DNA from: Candidatus Gastranaerophilales bacterium
Lineage (GTDB): Bacteria > Cyanobacteriota > Vampirovibrionia > Gastranaerophilales > Gastranaerophilaceae
Length of the DNA: 64,000 bases
Assembly: GCA_944325575.1 (NCBI GenBank)
Contig: CALVAR010000004.1
Location: 1 to 64,000 of the forward strand
Direction: 5' to 3'
Shown: positions 1 through 60,624 of the stretch, in pieces
Position numbering within the stretch: position 1 is the first letter of the stretch
Layout: the number at the start of each line of letters is the position of its first letter
Made by a program: the position numbers and the translations under genes
The notes under the pieces: generated by a model
Database searches by the model: none
What the model was told of the DNA's origin: nothing
Seen by the model: only the letters and a program-made list of their open reading frames with translations

Positions 1-260
1 GACGCCAAGTCTAGCATTTTGCGACTCTGCCGAAGAAACAATTAAGTATTGTTTCTGAGAGGTAGACCCCATGCACTGTCTTGAAATCAGACGTTCGTCA
101 GAAGCGTGGTTCTGACTCACATTGACACTGGGTTCGGCGTTGCCTCACACGGCGTGCCAGTCTGATTCCGCTTGTTGCCTGTGCCGGACTTGTTTTTAAA
201 AACTGACTTGTTTATTGCACAGGTTCATCAAGTAGTCGGAGTCAGTTGACAATATGAAAT
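1..260 (+). repeat. Dispersed structured repeat, copy 1 (left end outside window)
   Basis: This shares with the copies at 19569, 25144, 35622 and 60301 the conserved right half (GCCTGTGCCGGACTTG, then GCACAGGTTCA, then the terminal TTGACAATATGAAAT). The left part matches the short copies (CCAAGTCTAGCATTTTGCG) and then switches to the long-copy module ACTCTGCCGA with an inner hairpin AAACAAT/ATTGTTT. About 95 bp between GACCCCATGCAC and TTGTTGCCTGTG are unique to this copy. It is therefore a mosaic of both subtypes plus an extra module. The right border is base 260, which supplies the last base of the stop codon of the minus-strand gene next to it. Confidence 0.85.
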
Positions 261-3293: not shown

Positions 3294-6200
3294 ATGCCAA
3301 AAGATAAAAAGAGCCAAAATAATATTGACTTTTTAAAACTGTTTAAAAAGTCTCTTGCTGTGTCTTTGATGGCGTGTATCTTCGGTATACAAACATCTTA
3401 TGCAACAAATATTACTGCCGGTCCGGGTTATGGAACAAATGTAGATACAAGCGGTAATACGACAAATATATCCGGCGGTCTGATAAACGGTGATACAGGC
3501 TTTCATCATTTTACGGATTTTAACCTTTCTGCAGGTGATATTGCCAATTTGATATTTGCTCAGGGTGCAAACAGATATGTAAATCTTGTAGATAGTCAGA
3601 TCAGTATTTACGGTATTTTTAATGCAATAAAAGGCAGCGGTATAGGCGGAGATGTCATATTTGTGTCTCCTGCCGGTATGATAGTCGGTGCATCGGGGAT
3701 TATGAACGTCGGCTCTTTGCAGACTATTACACCTGCACAGGGTACATATAATTCTCTGTTGGGCTTGGGAACAGGAATATCTTATGACAATATCAGTAAT
3801 TTGAGTTCCGAAGGGTCTAATGCTTCGGTTAATATTCAGGGTAAAATTTTTGCATCGGACAATATAGACCTTTCTGCGGGCAACAGTGTTATCCTTGCTC
3901 CTAATTCCGCACTTGTGACCGGTTTTAATCAGGACGGATTTAACAAAACAAGAATTCCCGGTGTGGATATGTCCGAAATTGTAAATGACGACGGGATTGT
4001 TAATGCGGAATTTATTGCCGACGCGGGCGGGGATATAAAGCTTTTTGCAAACAATGTAAACGCATCGGGCGGATTAATACAGTCAAAAGGAGACGTTGCT
4101 CTTGATGCAAGAGACGGAACTATTACAGTCGGCTCTCAGGTAATGTCCGGCGGTGATGTCAACATAGGCGCCAATTCTTCCACTACAACAAGAAGAGTTA
4201 CACTGAATAATGATATAACAGCAGACGGGAATGTTAACATCACTATAGATCGTGATGTTATACAAAATGAGTCTTCTGATGTTACTGCCTCAAATGTAAA
4301 TTATTCTGCCAGTACTTTAACACTTGACGGTAATATTACTTCGGAGAACGGGATTAATATTTCTTCCACCCAGTTAAATCAGGGAGATAACTCTGAAATT
4401 CTAAATACCTCTTCAGGTAATATTACTATTTCCGCAAGTACTGATATCGAATCAAATAAAATTACAAATCAGGCACAAAACGGTGCAATAAACCTTTCTG
4501 GAAGAGATATTGTTTTAAAAGATACTGTATCTTCTTCCGGTACAATCAATGTTTCTGCACAGGGGGATATTTCACAGGCTGATGACAGTTTTAATGCTTT
4601 TGATTCAGGTAATGATTTGAATATAACGGCTGACTATAATGTCGGTTCTTCTTCGCAGGCTTTAAATGTAAATGTTGCTAATAATGTAAATATATATGGT
4701 GCCGGCTCTGATGTTTATTTAGCAAGTAAAGATTCTGATTTCAACATAGCAACTATTTCTAATGCACAGAATGTTAATTTGGACGGTTCAAAAAAAGTCA
4801 ATATTTCCCAGTCAATAGATGCAACTGATTCTGTAAATATTTCTTCAAAAGAGGGTTTTAGCCAGACAGCAGACTCTTCAATCAACATTATGGGCGGTTC
4901 CGGTGATGTAACCATAACTAATTCGGGCAGCGGTGATATAGATATAAATAATATTACTAATTATGGCGGAAATATTAATATAGATAATAATACCGGCTCA
5001 TCAGAACCCCCGACACCGGGTAATGTAAATATTAACGGCAGTGTGCATTCGGAAACAGGATATGTTGATATTGCTTCTGACGGCGGATATTCTCAATCCG
5101 GTACAATTAGCGCAAACGGTTCCGACGATTCAGGGAGTTCCGTTGTTATAGATGCACAGGGTGATGCAAATATAGGGCAGATTACAGGTCAAAATAATAT
5201 TAATATTAACGGTAATAATATTAACCTCGGAAATCTAGTTTCATCTGAGCAAGGCGGTATTACTCTGGATGCGCAGGGAAATATTACACAATCTTCTTCT
5301 GATACCTCATTGTCCGCTTCGCAGGATGTTACTTTAAATGCAGGCGGCGATATAGGCTCTTCCGAACAGACTATTGTTGTGTCCTCTGAGAATGGTGAAA
5401 TAATTGCCAATGCGGGCGGCGGCGCAAATTTAACCGGACAAAATACAAATATAGATCTTGGTAACATAAATGCCGGTACTGATTACAATATTATAACTAC
5501 AGGTGACGGTGAAATACTTTTTAACAGGGATTTGTCCGACATAAACGGCGATTTGTCCTTAATTACTGACAAAGATTTGAATATTAACAGTGAAATCACT
5601 GCATCAGGTGATGTTACTCTTGTATCGAATCAGGGTGATATAATTTTAAATTCAATTATTTCATCAACTGAAGAAAGTGTTAATCTTACCGCTCAGGGTG
5701 GAATCTATCATGATACTTCGTATACGGATGTTTCTATAAGCGCTCAGAAAGATATAAACCTTATTGCTCAGACGGGTGATGTAGGCACGTTCTCTGGCAA
5801 TGATGTTTCTCAGGCTGTAAAAGTAAATGCAAACGGTACTGTTAATGTTGAGGGCGGAAATATTGCTCTTGAAAGTCCGGGTTCTTTAAACATAGGAAAT
5901 ATAAATGCGTTAAAAGAAAATCCTCAAACTCTTGTAAATATAAAAACAACTGACGGGCAGAACGGAAATATAAATTTTGCAGGCTTAATAAAAGGTTCTG
6001 ATATAAATATTGATTCGGCACAGAGTATTACGCAGAGTGCTGACGGTCAGACGATTATTGCTTCCGGAGATTTATCTTTAATATCTCAAAACGGCAATAT
6101 CGGCGAGACGGATAATGCAATTATTTTTACCGCAGATAATGTCGCGGCTCAGGCACAAAACGGCTCTGTTATTCTAAAAGGTATTGATACAGATATCAGA

Positions 6201-9200
6201 ACTTCTCAGATTAGTGCAAAAGATAATATAGACCTTTCTACGGAAAATACGGGAATAGATCCTGAAAAAGGGAAGATTATTATTGAAAATGATCTTACGA
6301 CACAGGACGGATATATAACTTTAAACTCTGCTAAAAATCTTGAAATAAATAATAATATTTCTGCGGGTCAGTCCGTAACTCTTAATGCACAAGAAGGTAT
6401 AACACAGGCTGACAACACAGTTATTTCAAGCGGAAATTCTGCTTCTGCAGCGGAAGGAAACGGCAATATTATTATTACTAATGCAGAAACAGGAGATATT
6501 GTACTTGGTGATGTAACTGCAAATAAGGGACAGATAAGTGTTGTAAATAATGCTTCGGGCAGCGATATTGTTCTCAATTCAGTGTTAAACTCAACTTCTT
6601 CTGATGTGATTTTGAACTCCGAAGGAAATATCCTGCAGTCTGCCGCACGGGATGATGCATCGATTGTTGCTGCCGGTGATATTGTTTTAAATGCCGTAAA
6701 TGCAGGGGCAGCAGATAATAAAATGATGGTTAATGCCGGCGGGGCTTTATATTCTGCTTCTGATAATTTGTTTGTTCAGGATACGGATGGTGATTTGACT
6801 CTTGGCGTATTGAATATAGGACAGAGCGCCGATATAACAGCAAACGGTAATATCTTGCAGGATGAACAAGACAGAGATTCAATTATTTCTTCTGGAACTA
6901 TAAATATTAATACTACATCCGGGAATATAGGTTCTGCTGATAATTCACTTGCTTTAAATATTACGGGCGGCGGCAGAGTAAATGCGAATGCAAATGATAT
7001 TTACCTTGGCGGTACAAGTGTTTCAACAGGACAGATTAATGCGGCAAACAACTTAAATATAAATACAGTTGATAAAAACGGTTCCGTAACCATTGCCGAT
7101 AATATGACCGCAGGCGGAAATATAGATATAACATCCGGTAACGGCATAGCTCATACAGGCGGAACCATTACAAGAGGTGAAACCTCAGGCCATATAAATA
7201 TAGGTGCGACAAACGGAACAATTTCACTCGGAAATGTTGTAAACAATAACGGCGAAATAAATATTACGGGAACTGATAATGCATCGGATGTTATATTAAA
7301 CGATACTATTCAAAGTGCAGGCGGCAATGTTACCGTGTCTACTGTTGGCAATATTATTCAAAACGGCACTTCTCCATCTATTATCACTGACAGTAATATT
7401 TTGTTGACTTCTTCAGGCGGTTCAATAGGTACCGGCGCAGGGCAGGGACTTGTTGTTCAGGCTTCTAACGGCAGTGTGTCTGCCAATGCTGCAGATTCTG
7501 TCTACCTTGTCGGGGATAATACGGATATTAATGCATCAGGTATTTCTGCCGGAGAAAATATTGATTTAACAGTTACCGGTAGCGGAAATATAAATATAGA
7601 CAGTTCTTTAGTGACAAATAACGGCTATATAAGTCTTGTTACCGGAAATGGTATTGTTATAGACAATCTTATTTCTGCAACGGAAGATGTAACTATAAAT
7701 GCGCTCAGCGGTTCCATTACACAAAATTCCGCTCTCGACAAAGCAATTATTGCAGGCGGCGATGTGAATCTTGCTGCATCGGGTGATATCGGAGGGGATG
7801 CCTCTCATTTATCATTAACATCAAACGGCAGTGTTTCTGCTGACGGACAAAATGTTTATTTAAAAAGTCCTGATTCTGATTTGAATATTGCTTCTATAAA
7901 TTCTGACGGTGTTGTGAATCTGAGAACGGATACAGCAGGAAATATTAATCTTGGCGGGCTGGTTACCGGTACAGATATTACTCTTGATGCTGCAAACGGA
8001 GTTTATCAGACTGTCAGCGGAAAAACTATTGATGCTTCCGGTGATTTATCTTTGATTGCAAGACAGGATAGCGTCGGTCGTCAGGGACAGGCAATTAATT
8101 TCTCTGCAAATTCTGTTGCCGCTGACGCAGCAAGGTCTGTTGTTTTGCTCGGTGAAGATACTGATATAAATACGTCTTCAATTCATGCAACCGAAAATAT
8201 TGATTTAACAACAAGGGTAACGGATCCTGATTCTGATAAGGGTGTAATCACCGTTTCAAATGAACTTAATACAACAAACGGATACATAAGTCTGGATTCT
8301 GCAAAGGCACTTAATATAAATGAAAATATCAGTGCAGGTCAGCATATTACTCTTAATGCAAACGGAGGCATTGTACAGGGCAGCGGAACTTCTATTACAA
8401 GCGGAACGTCTTCTTCTGCACAAAATGCTGATATAAATATTTCAAATTCCGGCAGCGGCAGAATCGAACTCTCTGATGTTTCGTCAACAAACGGTAGTAT
8501 TAATATCTCAAACAATGTTACCTCCGGTGAAAATGCAGATGTTATACTGGGTGATATTAGCGCAACAAACGGTGCAGTAAACATAGTAAATTCTGCTTCC
8601 GGAAATGATGTTATTTTGAATTCGCTGGTACAGTCTACCGGAAATAATGCAGGTATTTCTATTACATCAAACGGTGCTTTGCTTCAGTCCCACGATAATC
8701 TTGCTCTTGATACATCCGGAAATATAGTTATTGATACTGTCAGCGGTGTTGGTACCGGGCTTCAAGCTGTTAAGCTCGGCGCTGACGGAACTATAAATGC
8801 ATCCGGAAACGGCATATATATAACAAGTCCGGAAAAAACATTAAACATTGCAGGTATAACTTCAACCGGAGATGTTAATCTTTCAACTGAAAATACCGGT
8901 ACAAATATAAATATTCAGGGAGAAATTACCGGTAATAATATAAATCTGAATGCACAAAACGGAATATATCAGACAACTGACGGTAAAACAATAACTGCAA
9001 CCGGAGATTTAAATCTTCAGGCTCAAGAAGGTGATATTGGTACCAGAGATAATGCAATTACTTTTGAGTCAGAAACTGTGACCGCATCAGCTGCACAGGG
9101 TTCAGTTGTATTAAACGGTATAGATACAACCATAAACACCGGCACAATCACTGCAGGACAGAATATAGATCTTACTACAACAGGCAGCGGCAATATAAAT

Positions 9201-12200
9201 GTTGAAGATGAGATAAATGCTTCAGGATATGTAAGATTAGATTCCGCTGAAAGTTTGGTATTAAATCATAATATTACATCGGATTCCTTTATAGAGCTTG
9301 GTGCTTCGGAAGGTTTGACACTTAATTCAAATATAGAAGCCGCAACTGATGTCATAATCGATACGCAGGGCGGAATTACTCAGGCCTCAGGCAGTATAAC
9401 AACCTCATCGGGCAGTGTTACTGCACAAAATACAGAAACAGGTAATATTAATTTAAATAATATTACCGCTTCCGATAATATTGATATAACAAACAGCGCA
9501 GCGGAAGGAACAGTTTCTTTGGCGGGGGCAACAGCTCAAAATGGTGCTGTAAATGTTTCCTCTCAGGGAAATGTTACCGCAGCTGGCGTAACAGCAAACG
9601 GTAATATTGATATTACAAGTGTTTCCGGTTCTTTATTAGATGCTGACTCCTTGACTTCTCAAACAGGCAATGTCTCTTTAACTTCTTCGGGCGATATTGA
9701 TGCATATGATATTACGGCATCAAGAGATATTAATATAAATAATAGTGCCGGCAGCGGTTCAGTAAATGCAGATACTTTATTATCACAGGGCGGCAGTATT
9801 GTTGTGAACTCTTCAAATAATACGACTGCCAATAATCTTACGGCTGCTAATAATATAGAAATAACCGGTAATAATGCGGGTAGTACAATTACCGCCGGTG
9901 ATTTATTATCACAGAACGGTAATATTATTTTAGATTCTGCCGGCAATTTGTCTGTTGCAGAAGGAGGTTTGACTGCGCAAACAGGCAATATTGAATTAAC
10001 AGCAAACGGAGATGTAATACTTTCTGCTCTTGCGGAAGCTTCCTTAGGCTCTGTCAGCATTACTTCTTCAGGTTCTGTTTCTCAAAACATTAACGGTAAA
10101 ACAATACAGGCAGGCTCTGATATAAATATTGATGCAGTTAATGATATCGGTCAGAGTGATAACGCATTGCAGATTAATGCCGGCGGTACTTTAAATGCGG
10201 ATGCTGATAATATTTATATTACAAATAACGAAGGCGGATTAAACATCGGTGAAATCACCGCACAGAATAATGCAAATCTGACTGCATCTGGCAATATTAT
10301 ACAGGCTTTGCCTTCTTCTTCGATAACGGCAAATAATATCAATTTGAATGCTGACGGATATCAAATAGGCTCCTCGACAGGTGCTTTAAATGTAAATACA
10401 TCAAATGCTGTTAATGCGAAAGCTGATGATATTTACCTGACATCAGAAAATAACCTGACTACCGGCAGAATTGATGCGCAAAATACTGCTGATATCACAA
10501 CAACAGGACAAAATACGAATATAACAGTATCAAATCTTATTTCTGGTAATGATGTTAATTTGAATGCGGCCGGAAGCATTATTCAGGATAGTACTCTTGA
10601 TAAAACTATCGAAGCAGGAAATTTAAATTTGACAGCACAAAACGGCAGTATCGGACAGACCGGTAATGCTATAGACTTTACCGCAACGGGTAATCTTCAG
10701 GCAAATGCCTCAGAGGCTGTTGTGTTGAACAGTGTCGGCAGAGATTTAAACACTTCTTCCGTAACTGCCGGAACAAGTATAGATCTTTCTACAGAGGGAA
10801 GCGGTAAAATTACCGTGTCCAGTGATTTAAACGCACAGGGTGGATATATCCGTCTGGATTCTGCAGAAGCTCTTGAATTAAACCATGACCTTAGCGCTAC
10901 GGATTATATAGAGCTTTCTTCAAAAGGCGGGAATGTCACGCTTGAAAATTCGCAAATAAATGCAGGTACTTATGTTGATATTGATTCTCAGGGGTCGATT
11001 TTACAAACAGGCAGTATGATAAACGCAGGTACTGATATTATTTTGAGTGCTGTACAAAATATAGGCTCTGCAGGCAGCGCAATAGCTGTTAATGCTAATA
11101 ATGATGTTACCGTCGGAAGTGCTGTTGATGTTTTCCTTAATAGCGCTGATACTTTGAATATTGCAGGTGTTAATGCAACCGGTACCGTTAACCTTGATGC
11201 AACAACATCCGGTGATGTAAATATTAAAGGTGAAATAAAAGGTGATGATATTACTATATCCGCTGCGGATAATATTTATCAGTCAATGGAAGGTCAGTCC
11301 GTTACGGCAACAGGTGATGTTACTTTAAATGCTGCCTCCGGTAATATCGGTCAAACAGGCAACGCAATTAATGTGGGCGCAGATTCTATTCGTGCAGCTG
11401 CAACTTCGGGATCAATTGTTATTAACGGTATAGATACGGACTTAAATACAAATGATATTACTGCAGGAAGAAATATTGACCTTACAACAACAGGCAGCGG
11501 TAATATTAATGTTCAAAGCGATCTTGACGCAAACGGATATATCAGGCTTGATTCATCAAATGATTTGAATCTAGGAGAATTTGATATAACCTCTGATGAT
11601 TATATTTATCTTGGCGCAAATAACGGAATTACCCTGGATTCTAATATTCAGGCGCAAACAGGTGTTACTGTTTCTTCAGGTGCCGGTATTTTACAAAATT
11701 CCGGCTACATTAACAGCGCAGGCGGAGATATTTCGTTTACAAATAACGGCGCAGGCGGTATAAATCTTAACAACGTAAATGCACAGGGCGGCTCTGTTAT
11801 AGTAAATGCTCTTCAGGATGCTTCCGGAGACATAGTTCTCGATAATATTCTGGCAAATAACAATATCTCTGTGACAAATAATTCTTCTGCTCAGAGCAAT
11901 GTAAATCTTGATGATTTAACAGCATCAAACGGAAATATTTCCGTTACAAATACTTCCGGCGGAAATATTGAACTTGATTCTGTTTTGACGGCTCAAAACG
12001 GAACAATTGCCCTAAATTCGGATAGAGGTAATATTACACAATCACATACAAATGCCTCTGTAGTTTCCGGCGGAGATGTTACTCTTGCAGGTAATAATGT
12101 CGGTTCTCAAACGCAATATATAAATACACAGGCCGGCGGCAATGTTAATGCTGACGGTACAAATATTTATATAGAAAGCAATCAGGACAGCTATAAGATA

Positions 12201-15200
12201 GGCAATATAAATTCCGGTTCTTCTTATACAAACAGCACGGTAAATATTAAAGCAAATAACGGCGATGTTGTGTTTAACGGACTTGTAAAAGGTAATGCGG
12301 TTGATGTTGACGCACAGGGCAGTATTACTCAAAACAGTGCTCTTGATAAGTCTGTGGAAGCAAATACCATAACATTTAATACCCAAAACGGCTCTGTTGG
12401 TTCATCTGACAACAGAATTGATATGTCTGTTACTGGTGCTGTTAATGTTGAGAATGCTGATTCAGTATATTTGCACGGTGTGGACAACGGTACTGATGTA
12501 GCTGTAAATCTTGGTAATATAAATGCAGCCAATACAGTAGATGTAACTTCCGAAACAGGCATGAGATTGAACGGTTTGATCGATACCAAAGATGCTATCT
12601 TGAGTGCACAGGGTGATATTTTGCAAAGTGCGGATACTGATTTGTCTATAGATGCTGATTCAATAAGACTTGAAAGTATCGGCGGCAACATCGGTACTAC
12701 CGGTAATGCAATTGATTTTAAAACTACGGACTTACAGGCTTCAGCTCTTAACGGCGGAGTTGTTTTAAACGGTGTTGACAGCAGTATTAATACAAGTACA
12801 ATCGAGGCAGGAACAAATATTGACCTTAGCACAACAGGCTCCGGTGATATTACAATACACGATGCATTAACCGCTAACGGATATATAAGACTTAATGCAG
12901 CTAATTCGTTAAATGTAAATCATAACCTTACTGCGCAGGATTATATAGAACTTGCGGCTCAAAACGGAGAAGTCCTTTTAGATTCAATAATAAGCGGAAC
13001 TGATGTGACAGTGAGTGCAGCAGGCGGTGTTAATCAGATATCAGGACAAATCCTGAGTTCCGGTTCTAACGGTGTAAATATTACAAACTCACAAAGCGGC
13101 GGAATTAATATAATTGATATTCAGGCAACAGGCGGACAAATTAATATTACAAATGATTCTACGGCATCGGGTGATGTATTGGTGGGTGATATAAGTGCGC
13201 TCAATGGTGTGAATATCACCAATAATTCATCAACAGAGGCTCTTGTTTCAATAAACGGCATATCAAATACAAATAACTCTGTTAATATAACAAACACATC
13301 AGGCGGCAATGTTGTGTTGAATGATCTGGTAGAATCTTCAAACGGTGACGTTAATATCAATGCCTCAACCGGTGATATCACACAGACATTTAATGATGTT
13401 GCAATAAATGCCGGCGGGGATGTTTCTCTTATTGCAGGAAACACTATAGGTTCATCGGATCAGTCTATTTTGATGAATGCAGCCGGTGATGTGTCTTTAG
13501 AAGGTTCAAATCTTTATATCACAAGCCCTGATTCTGATTTGAACATAATAAGCATTAATCAGAACAGACAGGACAAGACTCTCGGTATAGTTGATATGCA
13601 AACATTAACGGGTAATTTATCAATAAATGATAATATTACGGCGGATGATATAGATTTGGTTTCTGCCGGCTCTTTGTCAACTCTCGGTAATCTTTCTGCT
13701 GAAGATATAACAATGACTGCTGCAGACGCTATAAGCTCTGCCGGTAATATTTCAGGTTATAACGGAGTTACAATATTTGGCGGTTCTTTTGCACAGGGTG
13801 ATGGTACAACTATTTCATCGGAAAGAGGAAATGTTTCCGTAACCGCTCAAAACGGAAATGTTTCACTTGCTAATGTTGACGGATATTCCGGAGTTATTGT
13901 AACCGGTAATTCAGTTTCTCAAAATGCTGATACAACAATATCATCACAGACCGGAAATGTTAGTATCACAGCAAACAACGGAGATATTACATTAAACGGT
14001 TCACTTAGAAGCGACACGGGAAATGTGGATGTTTTAAATAATTCTTCCGGCAACGGTTCTGTGACGGTTAATAATATCAGCGCCGGAAATTCTTATACCG
14101 TTGCTAATAATGCAAACGGTCTTCTAACTGTAAACGGTACTTTAACAGGAAATAATAATTCATTAATTAATGCACAGAATGCGGGTAACAATTCCGGTCT
14201 TGTTATAAGTGATACTGCTGTTATTAACAATAACGGTACATTGTCTATATACAACGCTGGTGCTCAGGGTATGACGCTTGGCGGAACAATAAATAACAAT
14301 CAAACAGACGGTTCTTCTGTCACTATTGTGAGTGATAACGGAGGTTTAAAACTTTCTGCTGATATTAATAATGGCGCAAATACAGGCTCAACCAATACAG
14401 TAAGTATTTTGAATTCCGGCGTTGATGCCGAAGGAAATGGTCTTGTATTTGACTCAGGAACTATTAATAATTATGGCAATTTAACTGTGCAGAATGATGC
14501 AGGCGAGATGTCTCTTGCCGGAGAAATCAATACTTATCTCGGTTCTGTAAATTCATTTATTAACGGTGCAGACAGCGATTTTTATATTAATACTGATTTA
14601 GAAAATACCGGTACAACCATAACTTTTGAAAACAGAGGCTCCGGAAATCTTATAGTCGGTGAAGATGCTAACCTTTCCGTGTATAGTACACAGCAGGGTG
14701 ATGATGTGTATACAGGTGTTTTGAACCTTGTTAACTCCTCAACAACCGGCAATGGCGGAGGAATTACAATAGACGGAACATTAAATAACGGTGACGGTCA
14801 GACAGCAGGCGGTATTATCAACATTACAAACGATGTTAACGGCGGTGCATCTGATACGGGAATACTTCTGTCAGACAGTTCAGTAATTAACAACTATGCT
14901 GAATTAAATATTACAAATAACAATACAAGCGGCAATGCGGCTGGGTCAATTATTCTTAACGGTACAATACAGGGTGACAGAGGACCGATATTGACGTCTG
15001 ATACCGCTCCGGTACCGGCAGGCAGTGTCATCAATATCACCAATAATGCTTCCGGTGCAAACAGTTCTGTTCAATTTGGAGAAAATTCAAAAACAAATGT
15101 TAACGGCAATGTCCTTAATATAACAAATAACGGTCAGGCCGGTATTACATTCAATGAAAATGCTTCCGTAACAAATAATGCAAATATGACCATTACTAAT

Positions 15201-19568: not shown

Positions 19569-19823
19569 TGTCTGAGACGGTCTCGCTTGTACTCAAGAAC
19601 ATCATGATTCGTAAACTCGCCAAGGACTCAAGCCAGAAGTGATACACACTCTGCAAATAAATATGCCGGTGTCATATTTATGAGATATAGCGAGACCGCA
19701 TAAGCATAAATATAGCTAAAGTGACCCCATGCACTTGTTGTCTGTGCCGGACTTGTTGATAAAAACGGACTTGTTTATTGCACAGGTTCAATGAGTAGTC
19801 GGAGTCAGTTGACAATATAAAAT
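19569..19823 (+). repeat. Dispersed structured repeat, copy 2 (long form)
   Basis: A 255-bp copy starting TGTCTGAGACGGTCTCGCTT and ending TTGACAATATAAAAT. It carries the long-form modules: the block with ACTCAAGAAC..CTCAAGCCAG, the ATAAATATG/CATATTTAT hairpin, and the arm AGCGAGACCG that pairs with CGGTCTCGCT near the left end. Relative to copy 3, the left arm has C to T and the right arm G to A, preserving the pairing. It ends only 23 bases before the GTG start of the porin gene. Confidence 0.85.
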
Positions 19824-25143: not shown

Positions 25144-25408
25144 TGTCTGAGGCGGCCTCGCTTGTACTCAAGAGCATCCTGAGTCGTATGGCTTGTAAAC
25201 TCGCCTGCATCTCAAGCCAGAAGTGGTACACACTCTGCCGAATAAATATGCCGGTGGCATATTTATGAGAGGCAGCGAGGCCGCATAAGCATAAATATAG
25301 CTAAAGTGACCCCATGCACTTGTTGCCTGTGCCGGACTTGTTAGTAAAAATGTACTTGTTTATCGCACAGGTTCATCAAGTAGTCGGAGTCAGTTGACAA
25401 TATGAAAT
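25144..25408 (+). repeat. Dispersed structured repeat, copy 3 (long form)
   Basis: A 265-bp copy, TGTCTGAGGCGGCCTCGCTT to TTGACAATATGAAAT. The left arm GCGGCCTCGCT is perfectly complementary to AGCGAGGCCGC about 130 bases later. Between them lies a second hairpin, ATAAATATGCC/GGCATATTTAT. The module GCATCCTGA..CTCGCCTGCATCTCAAGC closely matches a stretch of the unrelated repeat block at 29.1 and 29.7 kb. The right half has the CCTGTGC/GCACAGG stem found in all copies. It sits between the pgi terminator and the rubrerythrin gene. Confidence 0.9.
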
Positions 25409-28994: not shown

Positions 28995-29034
28995 TTTGTA
29001 GATTGGGCAAACCTGCCCGAGACAATAAGTCTCG

Positions 29035-29275
29035 GGATGACAAATCATCGTCATTCTGCAGTAATGTAGGTTGGGCATACCTGCCCGACACAAACCTGTC
29101 ATTCTGAGGCTTTAGCCGTACCCTAAAGGGCATCCTGATATGTACGGCTCGTACCTCGCCTACATCTCAAGCAAGAATCTTTTGTGCAAAGATCCTTCGG
29201 TCGTTACACTTCCTCAGGATGACAAATCATCGTCATTCTGCAGTAATATAGGTTGTGCATACCTGCCCAACACAA
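29035..29275 (+). repeat. 241-bp direct repeat, first copy, in intergenic repeat block
   Basis: Bases 29035-29275 recur at 29594-29834 with about four substitutions, an offset of exactly 559 bp. The unit is built of short inverted modules: GTCATTCTG...CAGGATGAC ends, the palindromic GTACGGCTCGTAC region, and GGTTGGGCATACCTGCCC. It also contains GCATCCTGA..CTCGCCTACATCTCAAGC, which is shared with repeat copies 2 and 3 of the other family. No gene is visible here. Confidence 0.85.
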
Positions 29276-29593
29276 ACCTGTCATTCTGAAGTGTCAAACG
29301 AGCCTTGTGTAAAGAACGTTTGTGTTCAGAATTTTACAGGTGTGAAATCAAAAGTCTGTGAGATCCTTCGGTCGTTACACTTCCTCAGGATGACAAATAA
29401 CCGTCATTCTGAGCGCAGCGAAGAATCTTTTGTGCAAAGATCCTTCGGTCGTTACACTTCCTCAGGATGACAAACAACCGTCATTCTGAAGCGTCAAACG
29501 AGCCTTGTGTAAAGAACGTTTGTGTTCAGAATCTTACCAATCTGATATGTAAATCCAAAGCCGTTAAGATCCTTCGGTCACATTGTTCCCTCA
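29276..29593 (+). repeat. Array of short CATTCTGA/TCAGGATGAC modules between the direct repeats
   Basis: Between the two 241-bp copies lie further related units. The segment GTCATTCTGAAGYGTCAAAC through GTTTGTGTTCAGAAT occurs at 29279 and 29481. The segment GATCCTTCGGTCGTTACACT followed by TCCTCAGGATGAC appears twice here and again in each 241-bp repeat. The whole 28995-29836 block is repeat-derived; no promoter, RNA gene or credible protein gene was recognised. Confidence 0.75.
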
Positions 29594-29834
29594 GGATGAC
29601 AAATCATCGTCATTCTGCAGTAATGTAGGTTGGGCATACCTGCCCGACACAAACCTGTCATTCTGAGGCAATAGCCGTACCCTAAAGGGCATCCTGATAT
29701 GTACGGCTCGTACCTCGCCTACATCTCAAGCAAGAATCTTTTGTGCAAAGATCCTTCGGTCGTTACACTTCCTCAGGATGACAAATCATCGTCATTCTGC
29801 AGTAATGTAGGTTGGGCATACCTGCCCAACACAA
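29594..29834 (+). repeat. 241-bp direct repeat, second copy
   Basis: This is nearly identical to 29035-29275, with differences at only about four positions (for example CTTTAGCC versus CAATAGCC). That suggests a recent duplication or ongoing gene conversion. It ends 180 bp before the autotransporter start. Confidence 0.85.
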
Positions 29835-29882
29835 TACTTACATCTCAAGCAAAAAACCAAATGCCATTTTGTAAAGAATATT

Positions 29883-35621: not shown

Positions 35622-35796
35622 TGTCTGAGGCGGCCTCGCTTGTAGAAGTGGTACACGGAGTGCGAGTGACGCAAAGTCTAGCATTTTGCGGAAGTGACCC
35701 CATGTACTTGTTGCCTGTGCTGGACTTGTTGAGAAAAATGGACTTGTTTATTGCGCAGGTTCAACGGGTAATCGGAGTCAGTTGACAATATGAAAT
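35622..35796 (+). repeat. Dispersed structured repeat, copy 4 (short form)
   Basis: A 175-bp copy, exactly the same length as copy 5 at 60301, starting TGTCTGAGGCGGCCTCGCTT and ending TTGACAATATGAAAT. It lacks the long-form central modules of copies 2 and 3. It carries the CTCGC..GCGAG and CCTGTGC..GCGCAGG pairings (the latter with one G-T/G-U wobble). It lies between the rpmB terminator and the atp operon promoter region. Confidence 0.92.
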
Positions 35797-56567: not shown

Positions 56568-56720
56568 GTCATCCTGAGGAGCAAAGCGAGCTCAGGATCT
56601 TACAGGCTTTGAATTTGCATTTCAGACTGGTAAGATTCTGAATACAGCAATATTTTTGCAGCAAAGCACATTTAATGCTTCAGAATGACATTTGTTGAGT
56701 TGGGCAAGTATGCCCAACCG
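56568..56720 (-). repeat. Inverted copy of the CATTCTGA/TCAGGATGAC repeat block
   Basis: The reverse complement reads TGTCATTCTGAAGC, then ATTCAGAATCTTACCAGTCT, then TAAGATCC and finally CTCAGGATGACA, matching the unit at about 29481-29600 in order. It ends with GTTGGGCAAGTATGCCCAAC, like the GGTTGGGCATACCTGCCC modules of the 29-kb block. It lies downstream of ispF and carries no gene. Confidence 0.7.
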
Positions 56721-56761
56721 ACAGCGCCTTAGTCACTCCGAAACAAACACCTTATGTATCC

Positions 56762-56945
56762 CTAAGTAAAAAACGAGAGAGCAGATATTTTATTTTAGAG
56801 TGACTTAAAATCCTACCCGCCAATGTTATACGGCACGCAGATACTTCGTATCTGACTTAGCCTGCCTCTAAAAAATGATAATTAATCATTTTTTAGAGTT
56901 CTTGGAACGAAAAAATGAAATATCTGCTCTCGAATGCGAAATATT
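56762..56945 (-). repeat. Inverted-repeat element, copy B
   Basis: Same element as 28878-28994 but on the other strand, with terminal repeats GAGAGCAGATATTTTATTTT and its near-complement AAAATGAAATATCTGCTCTC. Relative to copy A it contains about 70 extra bases, including a long perfect hairpin built on CTCTAAAAAATGAT and its complement. With the preceding unit it fills most of the 526-bp gap 56525-57050. Confidence 0.75.
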
Positions 56946-60122: not shown

Positions 60123-60624
60123 ATGGCCTATTTGTATTTGTTTGTAGCAATTATTGCTGAAATATTTGCAACTACAATGCTTAAAGACACTAACGGATTT
60201 ACTGTTTTATTCCCATCAATATTTACAATAGCAGGCTATATTCTTTCTTTTTATATGCTTGGTCTCTGTGTACAATATATACCAACCGGTATCATATATG
60301 TGTCTGAGGCGGCCTCGCTTGTAGAAGTGGTCCACGGAGTGCGAGTGACGCCAAGTCTAGCATTTTGCGGAAGTGACCCCATGCACTTGTTGCCTGTGCC
60401 GGACTTGTTTTTAAAAACTGACTTGTTTATTGCACAGGTTCATCAAGTAGTCGGAGTCAGTTGACAATATGAAATCTATTTGGTCAGGTATAGGGATTGT
60501 CGGTATTGCAATTCTAGGATGGATAGTACACAAACAGATTCTTGATATACCTGCAATTATAGGCATTCTGCTTATTTTAGCCGGAGTGCTGGTAATAAAG
60601 ATATTCTCCAAATCGGTTGTGTAA
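60123..60624 (+). pseudogene. EmrE-like small multidrug resistance protein, interrupted by a 175-bp repeat
   Basis: The first 59 codons encode SMR helices 1-2, with the essential glutamate Glu13 in AIIAEIFATTMLK and the motif YIPTGIIY. Repeat copy 5 (60301-60475) follows. The frame then resumes in the motif as (A)IWSGIGIVGIAILGW and runs through DIPAIIGILLILAGVLVI to TAA at 60624. Joining base 60300 to 60476 creates GCT (Ala), giving GIIYAIWSG exactly as in EmrE-type proteins, with 108 residues in all. As read directly, translation passes 53 codons into the repeat and ends at TGA 60462-60464; an ATG at 60469 is in frame with the second half. Probably inactive unless the halves are co-expressed. 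Confidence 0.9.
60301..60475 (+). repeat. Dispersed structured repeat, copy 5 (short form), inside the SMR gene
   Basis: A 175-bp copy whose borders are fixed by the coding frame of the interrupted gene: first base T of TGTCTGAGG, last base T of ATATGAAAT. No target duplication is present. Sequence and length match copy 4 at 35622 with scattered substitutions. It contains the perfect CCTGTGC/GCACAGG stem and a duplicated GACTTGTT. Confidence 0.95.

Follow-up and report, generated by a model that had tools for sequence, protein, structure and literature searches.

An SMR (Small Multidrug Resistance) gene in the window, the whole 64,000-nt stretch analysed here, is interrupted by 175 bases that are probably a copy of a non-autonomous, non-coding element moving as single-stranded DNA. 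The element has precise ends, is inserted between two bases without duplication or loss, is oriented by replication strand as judged from GC skew, weakly prefers A/T targets (A at -4) that resemble its own last bases, and carries a conserved structure near its right end. We infer the enzyme class, a circle intermediate and targeting of the lagging-strand template. Its family is new and non-autonomous, but of a kind already known. The features of the window that bear on it are listed below.

60123..60300, + strand: 5' portion of the split SMR gene (PF00893), 59 codons and one base of the next, an Ala codon
60301..60475, + strand: complete copy of the 175-nt non-coding mobile element, with left end TGTCTGAGGCGGCC and right end GTTGACAATATGAAAT
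60301..60316, + strand: left terminus TGTCTGAGGCGGCCTC, in which TGTC can pair with the right-end GACA and GAGG-CGG-CCTC is a small hairpin
60371..60463, + strand: large right-hand hairpin, limits approximate, foot ~10 nt from the right terminus
60455..60475, + strand: conserved motif of the right end, AGTCAGTTGACAATATGAA, with two further bases; this stretch varies least within the family
60476..60624, + strand: 3' part of the SMR gene, from the remaining Ala codon bases to the stop
35622..35796, + strand: full 175-nt copy, 92% identical
25144..25408, + strand: 265-nt copy with the same ends and an extra internal module
19569..19823, + strand: 255-nt copy whose left hairpin has the compensatory pair GAGA-CGG-TCTC
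1..260, + strand: partial copy cut by the contig start (repeat match 171-260), right end at 260

Joining position 60300 to 60476 by script gave a 108-codon frame, and the 108-residue protein matched the full profile of Pfam PF00893. When the split gene was aligned with seven uninterrupted SMR genes from relatives, six of them from the same genus, the sole internal gap was of 175 bases. The net gain is 175 bases, placed after the first base of the Ala codon (G|CT). Sliding of the insertion borders is impossible because the neighbouring bases differ (T at 60301 and C at 60476; G at 60300 and T at 60475). The initial annotation, made from the letters alone, had proposed that excision of 60301-60475 restores the frame and a GCT Ala codon, that the borders are fixed to the base and that the junction is scarless. 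All of this held in the comparison with related uninterrupted alleles that it had suggested: the rejoined gene aligned without gaps, and no base was duplicated or deleted at the junction. The SMR gene is most simply regarded as inactivated. A short in-frame ORF (60469-60624) starts at an ATG at 60469 within the element, and a second SMR-like gene with 43% identity is kept in the same genome at C20:8541.

The inserted bases belong to a family with fixed, sharp ends (TGTCTGAGGCGG...GTCAGTTGACWATATGAAAT; left TGTCTGAGGCGGCC, right TTGACAATATGAAAT). The genome from which the window comes (2.02 Mb, 38 contigs) contains at least 46 matches, and among those listed six are 100% identical over 175 nt, which points to recent spread. 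Right-end motifs (AGTCAGTTGACWATATGAA, at most one mismatch) numbered 79 in this genome, compared to 0 for a reversed-pattern control. With four further copies in the window as well, the repeat described by the initial annotation is real, but its size of 175 bp is that of the commonest subtype only: lengths range from 32 to about 550 nt, with a mode at 173-178. The interior is modular and seems to have been swapped or invaded by other repeats. A 32-nt mini-element (TGTCTGAGGCTGTCAGTTGACTATATGAAAT; L284, in G021 C3:120000-139999) consists of just the left TGTCTGAGGC and the right TGTCAGTTGACTATATGAAAT, from which the element ends look minimal; several right ends lack a recognisable left end. 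No transposase gene was found inside the elements read in the window's genome. An autonomous, ORF-bearing version was considered and rejected, as the elements with a recognised left end in the fetched surroundings of this genome are 174 to about 550 nt long, too short for a transposase gene of known size plus the ends. The earlier description of the element as non-autonomous is supported.

Exact insertion was also observed at other loci. Empty sites were exact for L021 against its paralogue L037 (a related repeat) in the window's genome, for L032 and L041 against each other, for L326 of relative G015 against G005, for L022 against G014, G006 and G010, and for L006 and L016 against G014 and G006, all of them gap-free at the junction. 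Reading L022 as a +176 insertion was rejected, since its site is codon 3 of a gene starting ATGAATAAT and the G014 and G006 empty sites are exact. L001, L003, L011, L013 and L015 were not counted as empty sites, because they lie in intergenic DNA that has diverged and their alignments have gaps close to the junction. Across 146 copies, identity between left and right flanks over 1-9 bases was not above that of shuffled pairing. The absence of a flanking duplication, by which the initial annotation had set the insertion apart from those of DDE-type transposases, is therefore borne out by empty sites and copy statistics alike. An ordinary DDE-type MITE whose target duplication had decayed would account for the partial inverted similarity of the ends (TGTC-TGA versus TGTCAACTGA), but no duplication is present even in identical copies, which must be young, or in the 146 copies, and the empty sites refute this hardly credible explanation.

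The flanks of the same 146 copies revealed a target with a weak A/T preference and no fixed tetranucleotide. On the left, 84% of copies have A at -4 and 61% have A at -3, while position -1 is A or T in 90%; on the right, T is mildly favoured from +2 to +4, which is not expected of a one-sided Y1 target. The element itself ends in GAAAT or GAAAA, and its last 5 bases match the left flank at a mean of 2.38-2.45 of 5 positions at offsets 0-1 compared to about 1.5 further away, a difference of which A-richness explains part. The weak symmetry of the target (AAWW|WTT) and the resemblance of the left flank to the right end, as between att half-sites, could also reflect an unrecognised double-strand recombinase that, with the half-site logic of tyrosine recombinases, joins a right-end/left-end junction to A/T-rich targets. 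This is rather improbable. The window's genome has two Phage_integrase genes, of the same kind as those in the other genomes and, by inference from size and conservation, XerC/XerD, and its two serine recombinases are both large. Serine recombinases moreover need a shared 2-bp core, which gives sliding borders, whereas the borders of the element do not slide, and a replication-strand bias is not expected of such enzymes. An integron or tyrosine recombinase was accordingly rejected because the genome holds Xer-like genes only, and a small serine recombinase because it holds large ones only. Like integron attC cassettes, the element combines a folded single-stranded site with insertion at one phosphodiester and no duplication, but the genome lacks an integron integrase and the element has no conserved G before its left junction.

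The orientation of the elements was compared with GC skew, taken as a proxy for the replication strand, in 20-kb stretches of the window's genome and of G021 together with the window. Orientation agreed with the sign of this proxy in 61/88 elements (p=4e-4) and, with the elements masked and |skew|>0.05, in 36/42 (p=3e-6). Agreement with the strand of the nearest gene was 44/88, and where gene strand and skew were in conflict, orientation followed skew in 31 cases versus 14. All five copies in the window lie on the + strand, and the window's skew is positive. Together, these results place the + strand of the element on the G-rich strand. By the usual reading of GC skew, the G-rich strand is the parental lagging-strand template. 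IS200/IS605 transposases prefer this template, and they use a tetranucleotide in the left flank together with its right-end equivalent (PMC6006769). With GC skew as the proxy, the orientation bias of the element matches this lagging-template preference.

Exact insertion, orientation bias and a left flank weakly resembling the right end are hallmarks of single-strand movement into the lagging-strand template, and therefore favour an HUH/IS200-IS605-like mechanism. The folded element would be cut by an HUH-type (Y1-like) nuclease acting in trans, on the 3' side of both an A-rich site at the left junction and the terminal GAAAT, and would be inserted on the 3' side of an AAWW-like site that is exposed in the lagging-strand template. 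The insertion into the SMR gene fell between positions 1 and 2 of the Ala codon and has broken the gene. Non-autonomous IS200/IS605 elements of the PATE type are similar in inserting exactly and without target duplication, in their asymmetric ends with a hairpin close to the right one, and in their bias towards one replication strand; the relation of the left flank to the last right-end bases, a further trait of theirs, is weak in the element. In contrast to them, the element has no fixed left-flank tetra- or pentanucleotide, and no TnpA(IS200) or TnpB partner with these ends was found. Thus, of the Y1/HUH, IS200/IS605-like reading in the initial annotation, the single-strand mechanism is favoured, with independent support from an orientation that follows the replication strand and not genes and from the likeness of the left flank to the right terminus, while strict IS200/IS605 membership is not supported. 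More tentatively, this may be a strand-specific, scarless single-strand family that is moved by a host-encoded or undescribed HUH-like enzyme, neither IS200 TnpA nor RAYT (REP-associated tyrosine transposase), with interiors swapped in modules and a requirement for only ~12 nt at the left end and 20 nt at the right end.

The conserved structure was examined by aligning 20 diverse copies. In the right half (columns 72-165), 98% of cells were paired in a large hairpin, and sliding the partners as a control brought pairing down to about 40%. Double changes occurred at three pairs, with 20 double-change cells compared to a mean of 7 in shuffles; CTGTGC/GCACAG, for example, is replaced by GGGTGC/GCACCC. 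This hairpin greatly exceeds the 20-25 nt reported for IS608, and compared with the small subterminal hairpins of IS200/IS605 the element has a small left and a large covarying right one, with DNA-parameter folding of either strand no better than shuffles. RNA folding was somewhat more stable than shuffles (z -2.0), and G-U pairs, common in the conserved helices, fit RNA better than single-stranded DNA. A required CATTTT guide 5' of the right hairpin was rejected: it is present in 42/42 elements of 170-180 nt but missing in 28/49 longer and 11/11 shorter ones. Likewise rejected was an outward promoter in the right end (TTGACW), as 257 right flanks showed no -10 enrichment at the correct spacing.

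The fold and the G-U pairs would fit a structured RNA that propagates in the manner of an intron or a SINE, through reverse splicing or reverse transcription, and is possibly removed from transcripts. Group II introns also insert exactly. Such an origin is nevertheless quite improbable, given that no RVT_1 reverse transcriptase is present in the window's genome (3/23 genomes of the genus have one, and it is absent in 19/22 congeners), for which reason a retroelement was rejected. The element has no match in Rfam, introns included. Removal at the RNA level, which the initial annotation had offered as its other possibility, is unlikely because nearly all copies examined lie outside genes, their orientation ignores genes and no intron match was found. 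HEARO and omega-RNA elements, associated with IscB or TnpB, are likewise structured, non-coding and inserted without duplication. The element differs from these in having no Rfam match and no fixed target motif; TnpB (PF07282) occurs in 1/23 genomes and none was tied to these element ends, so that a TnpB/omega-RNA system was also rejected.

It counts against the favoured single-strand movement that, among the Y1, TnpB, reverse transcriptase and recombinase families searched, no mobilising enzyme was tied to the element ends; the Y1 genes examined are RAYT-like, and no IS200-type TnpA with these ends was found. Y1_Tnp matches occur in 8/23 genomes. The window's genome encodes a RAYT, a full-length protein from C7:85400 (NF047646, 140 bits), and the element could be a REP/REPIN-like sequence moved by it, which would belong to the same Y1 single-strand class. 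REPs and REPINs are similarly short, high-copy, intergenic and palindromic, with single-strand enzymology expected. Element copies lie on both sides of a RAYT gene in relative G012, but one of them sits in the RAYT stop codon, as an ordinary insertion would. The element is longer than REPs, and GTAG is not conserved at its hairpin foot, where it varies to GTAA, GTTG, GTTA and GTGG, in contrast to the GTAG/GTGG guide of REPs. The Y1 loci read lie mostly beside GTAG-type hairpins of other sequence, such as GTAGGTTGGGCATACTTGCCCAAC (GTAGGTTGGGC..GCCCAAC type) and, beside the Y1 gene at C9:55497, GTAGGGTGCAATAAATTGCACC (GTAGGGTGCAAT..ATTGCACC), and no element copy was present in the stretches read around the Y1 matches of the window's genome at C7:85400, C9:55497 and C9:7837. 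The four relatives with the most copies, G006, G010, G014 and G021, gave no Y1 match, although drafts can miss genes and multi-copy elements and G006 and G014 are 85-89% complete. At least 10 listed element matches were found in 4/8 genomes with a Y1 match and in 7/15 without one; in other words, 4/11 genomes with at least 10 listed matches have a Y1 match. RAYT was therefore rejected as the mover, its genes showing no association with element copy number and adjoining different REPs, and a REP/REPIN-like origin is unlikely. As a separate observation, L194, L196, L197, L199, L200, L277 and L278 contain RAYT-type Y1 genes in Gastranaerophilales that mostly adjoin GTAG-type REP hairpins distinct from the element.

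A sequence query of 59 relatives detected the element in 17/22 genomes of the same genus and in 0/37 others, and the public genomes that matched were mostly labelled Candidatus Gastranaerophilales. Phage, plasmid and IMG/VR collections gave no match, and nothing relevant was found in the literature on such repeats in Gastranaerophilales or Melainabacteria. In G006, the region that corresponds by orthology to the L006 site has, ~60 nt away from it, an element split between contigs whose two parts are 100% identical to the window copy; the flanks there are 91-98% identical. This suggests an independent insertion and possibly exchange between species. From an uncultured gut lineage, the family supplies a natural collection of insertions with precise borders, for which many empty sites exist. 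Should the single-strand reading be right, the element is scarless, biased by replication strand and relaxed in its targeting, and its enzyme would tell whether RAYT-like or unknown HUH enzymes spread sequences beyond their own REPs.

Several further arrangements were noted. Between G005 and G015, an orthologous element (L329, L330) apparently differs more in its interior than do its surroundings, which are 95% identical. Right ends are inverted tail-to-tail at L122, L038 and L056, where two copies or fragments are abutting or nested. A palindrome (TGTCTGAGGCGGCCTCAGACA) at L131:4866-4910 and L058:1251-1275 opens with the left end of the element, followed by a mirror image of that end. The long variants at L253, L254, L255, L260 and L264 have internal modules in common, for example AGCGGATTTTCGGACGGACAAAGTCCGGGG...GAAAATCC, and modules similar to long-variant interiors also occur outside recognised elements (L122, L158). 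Within the window, another repeat family (GATCCTTCGGTCGTTACACTTCCTCAGGATGACA and companions) is present in direct and inverted copies at 29031-29843 and 56578-56944, and degenerate repeats of 57-98 nt occupy an apparent long repetitive coding region at 4691-13546.
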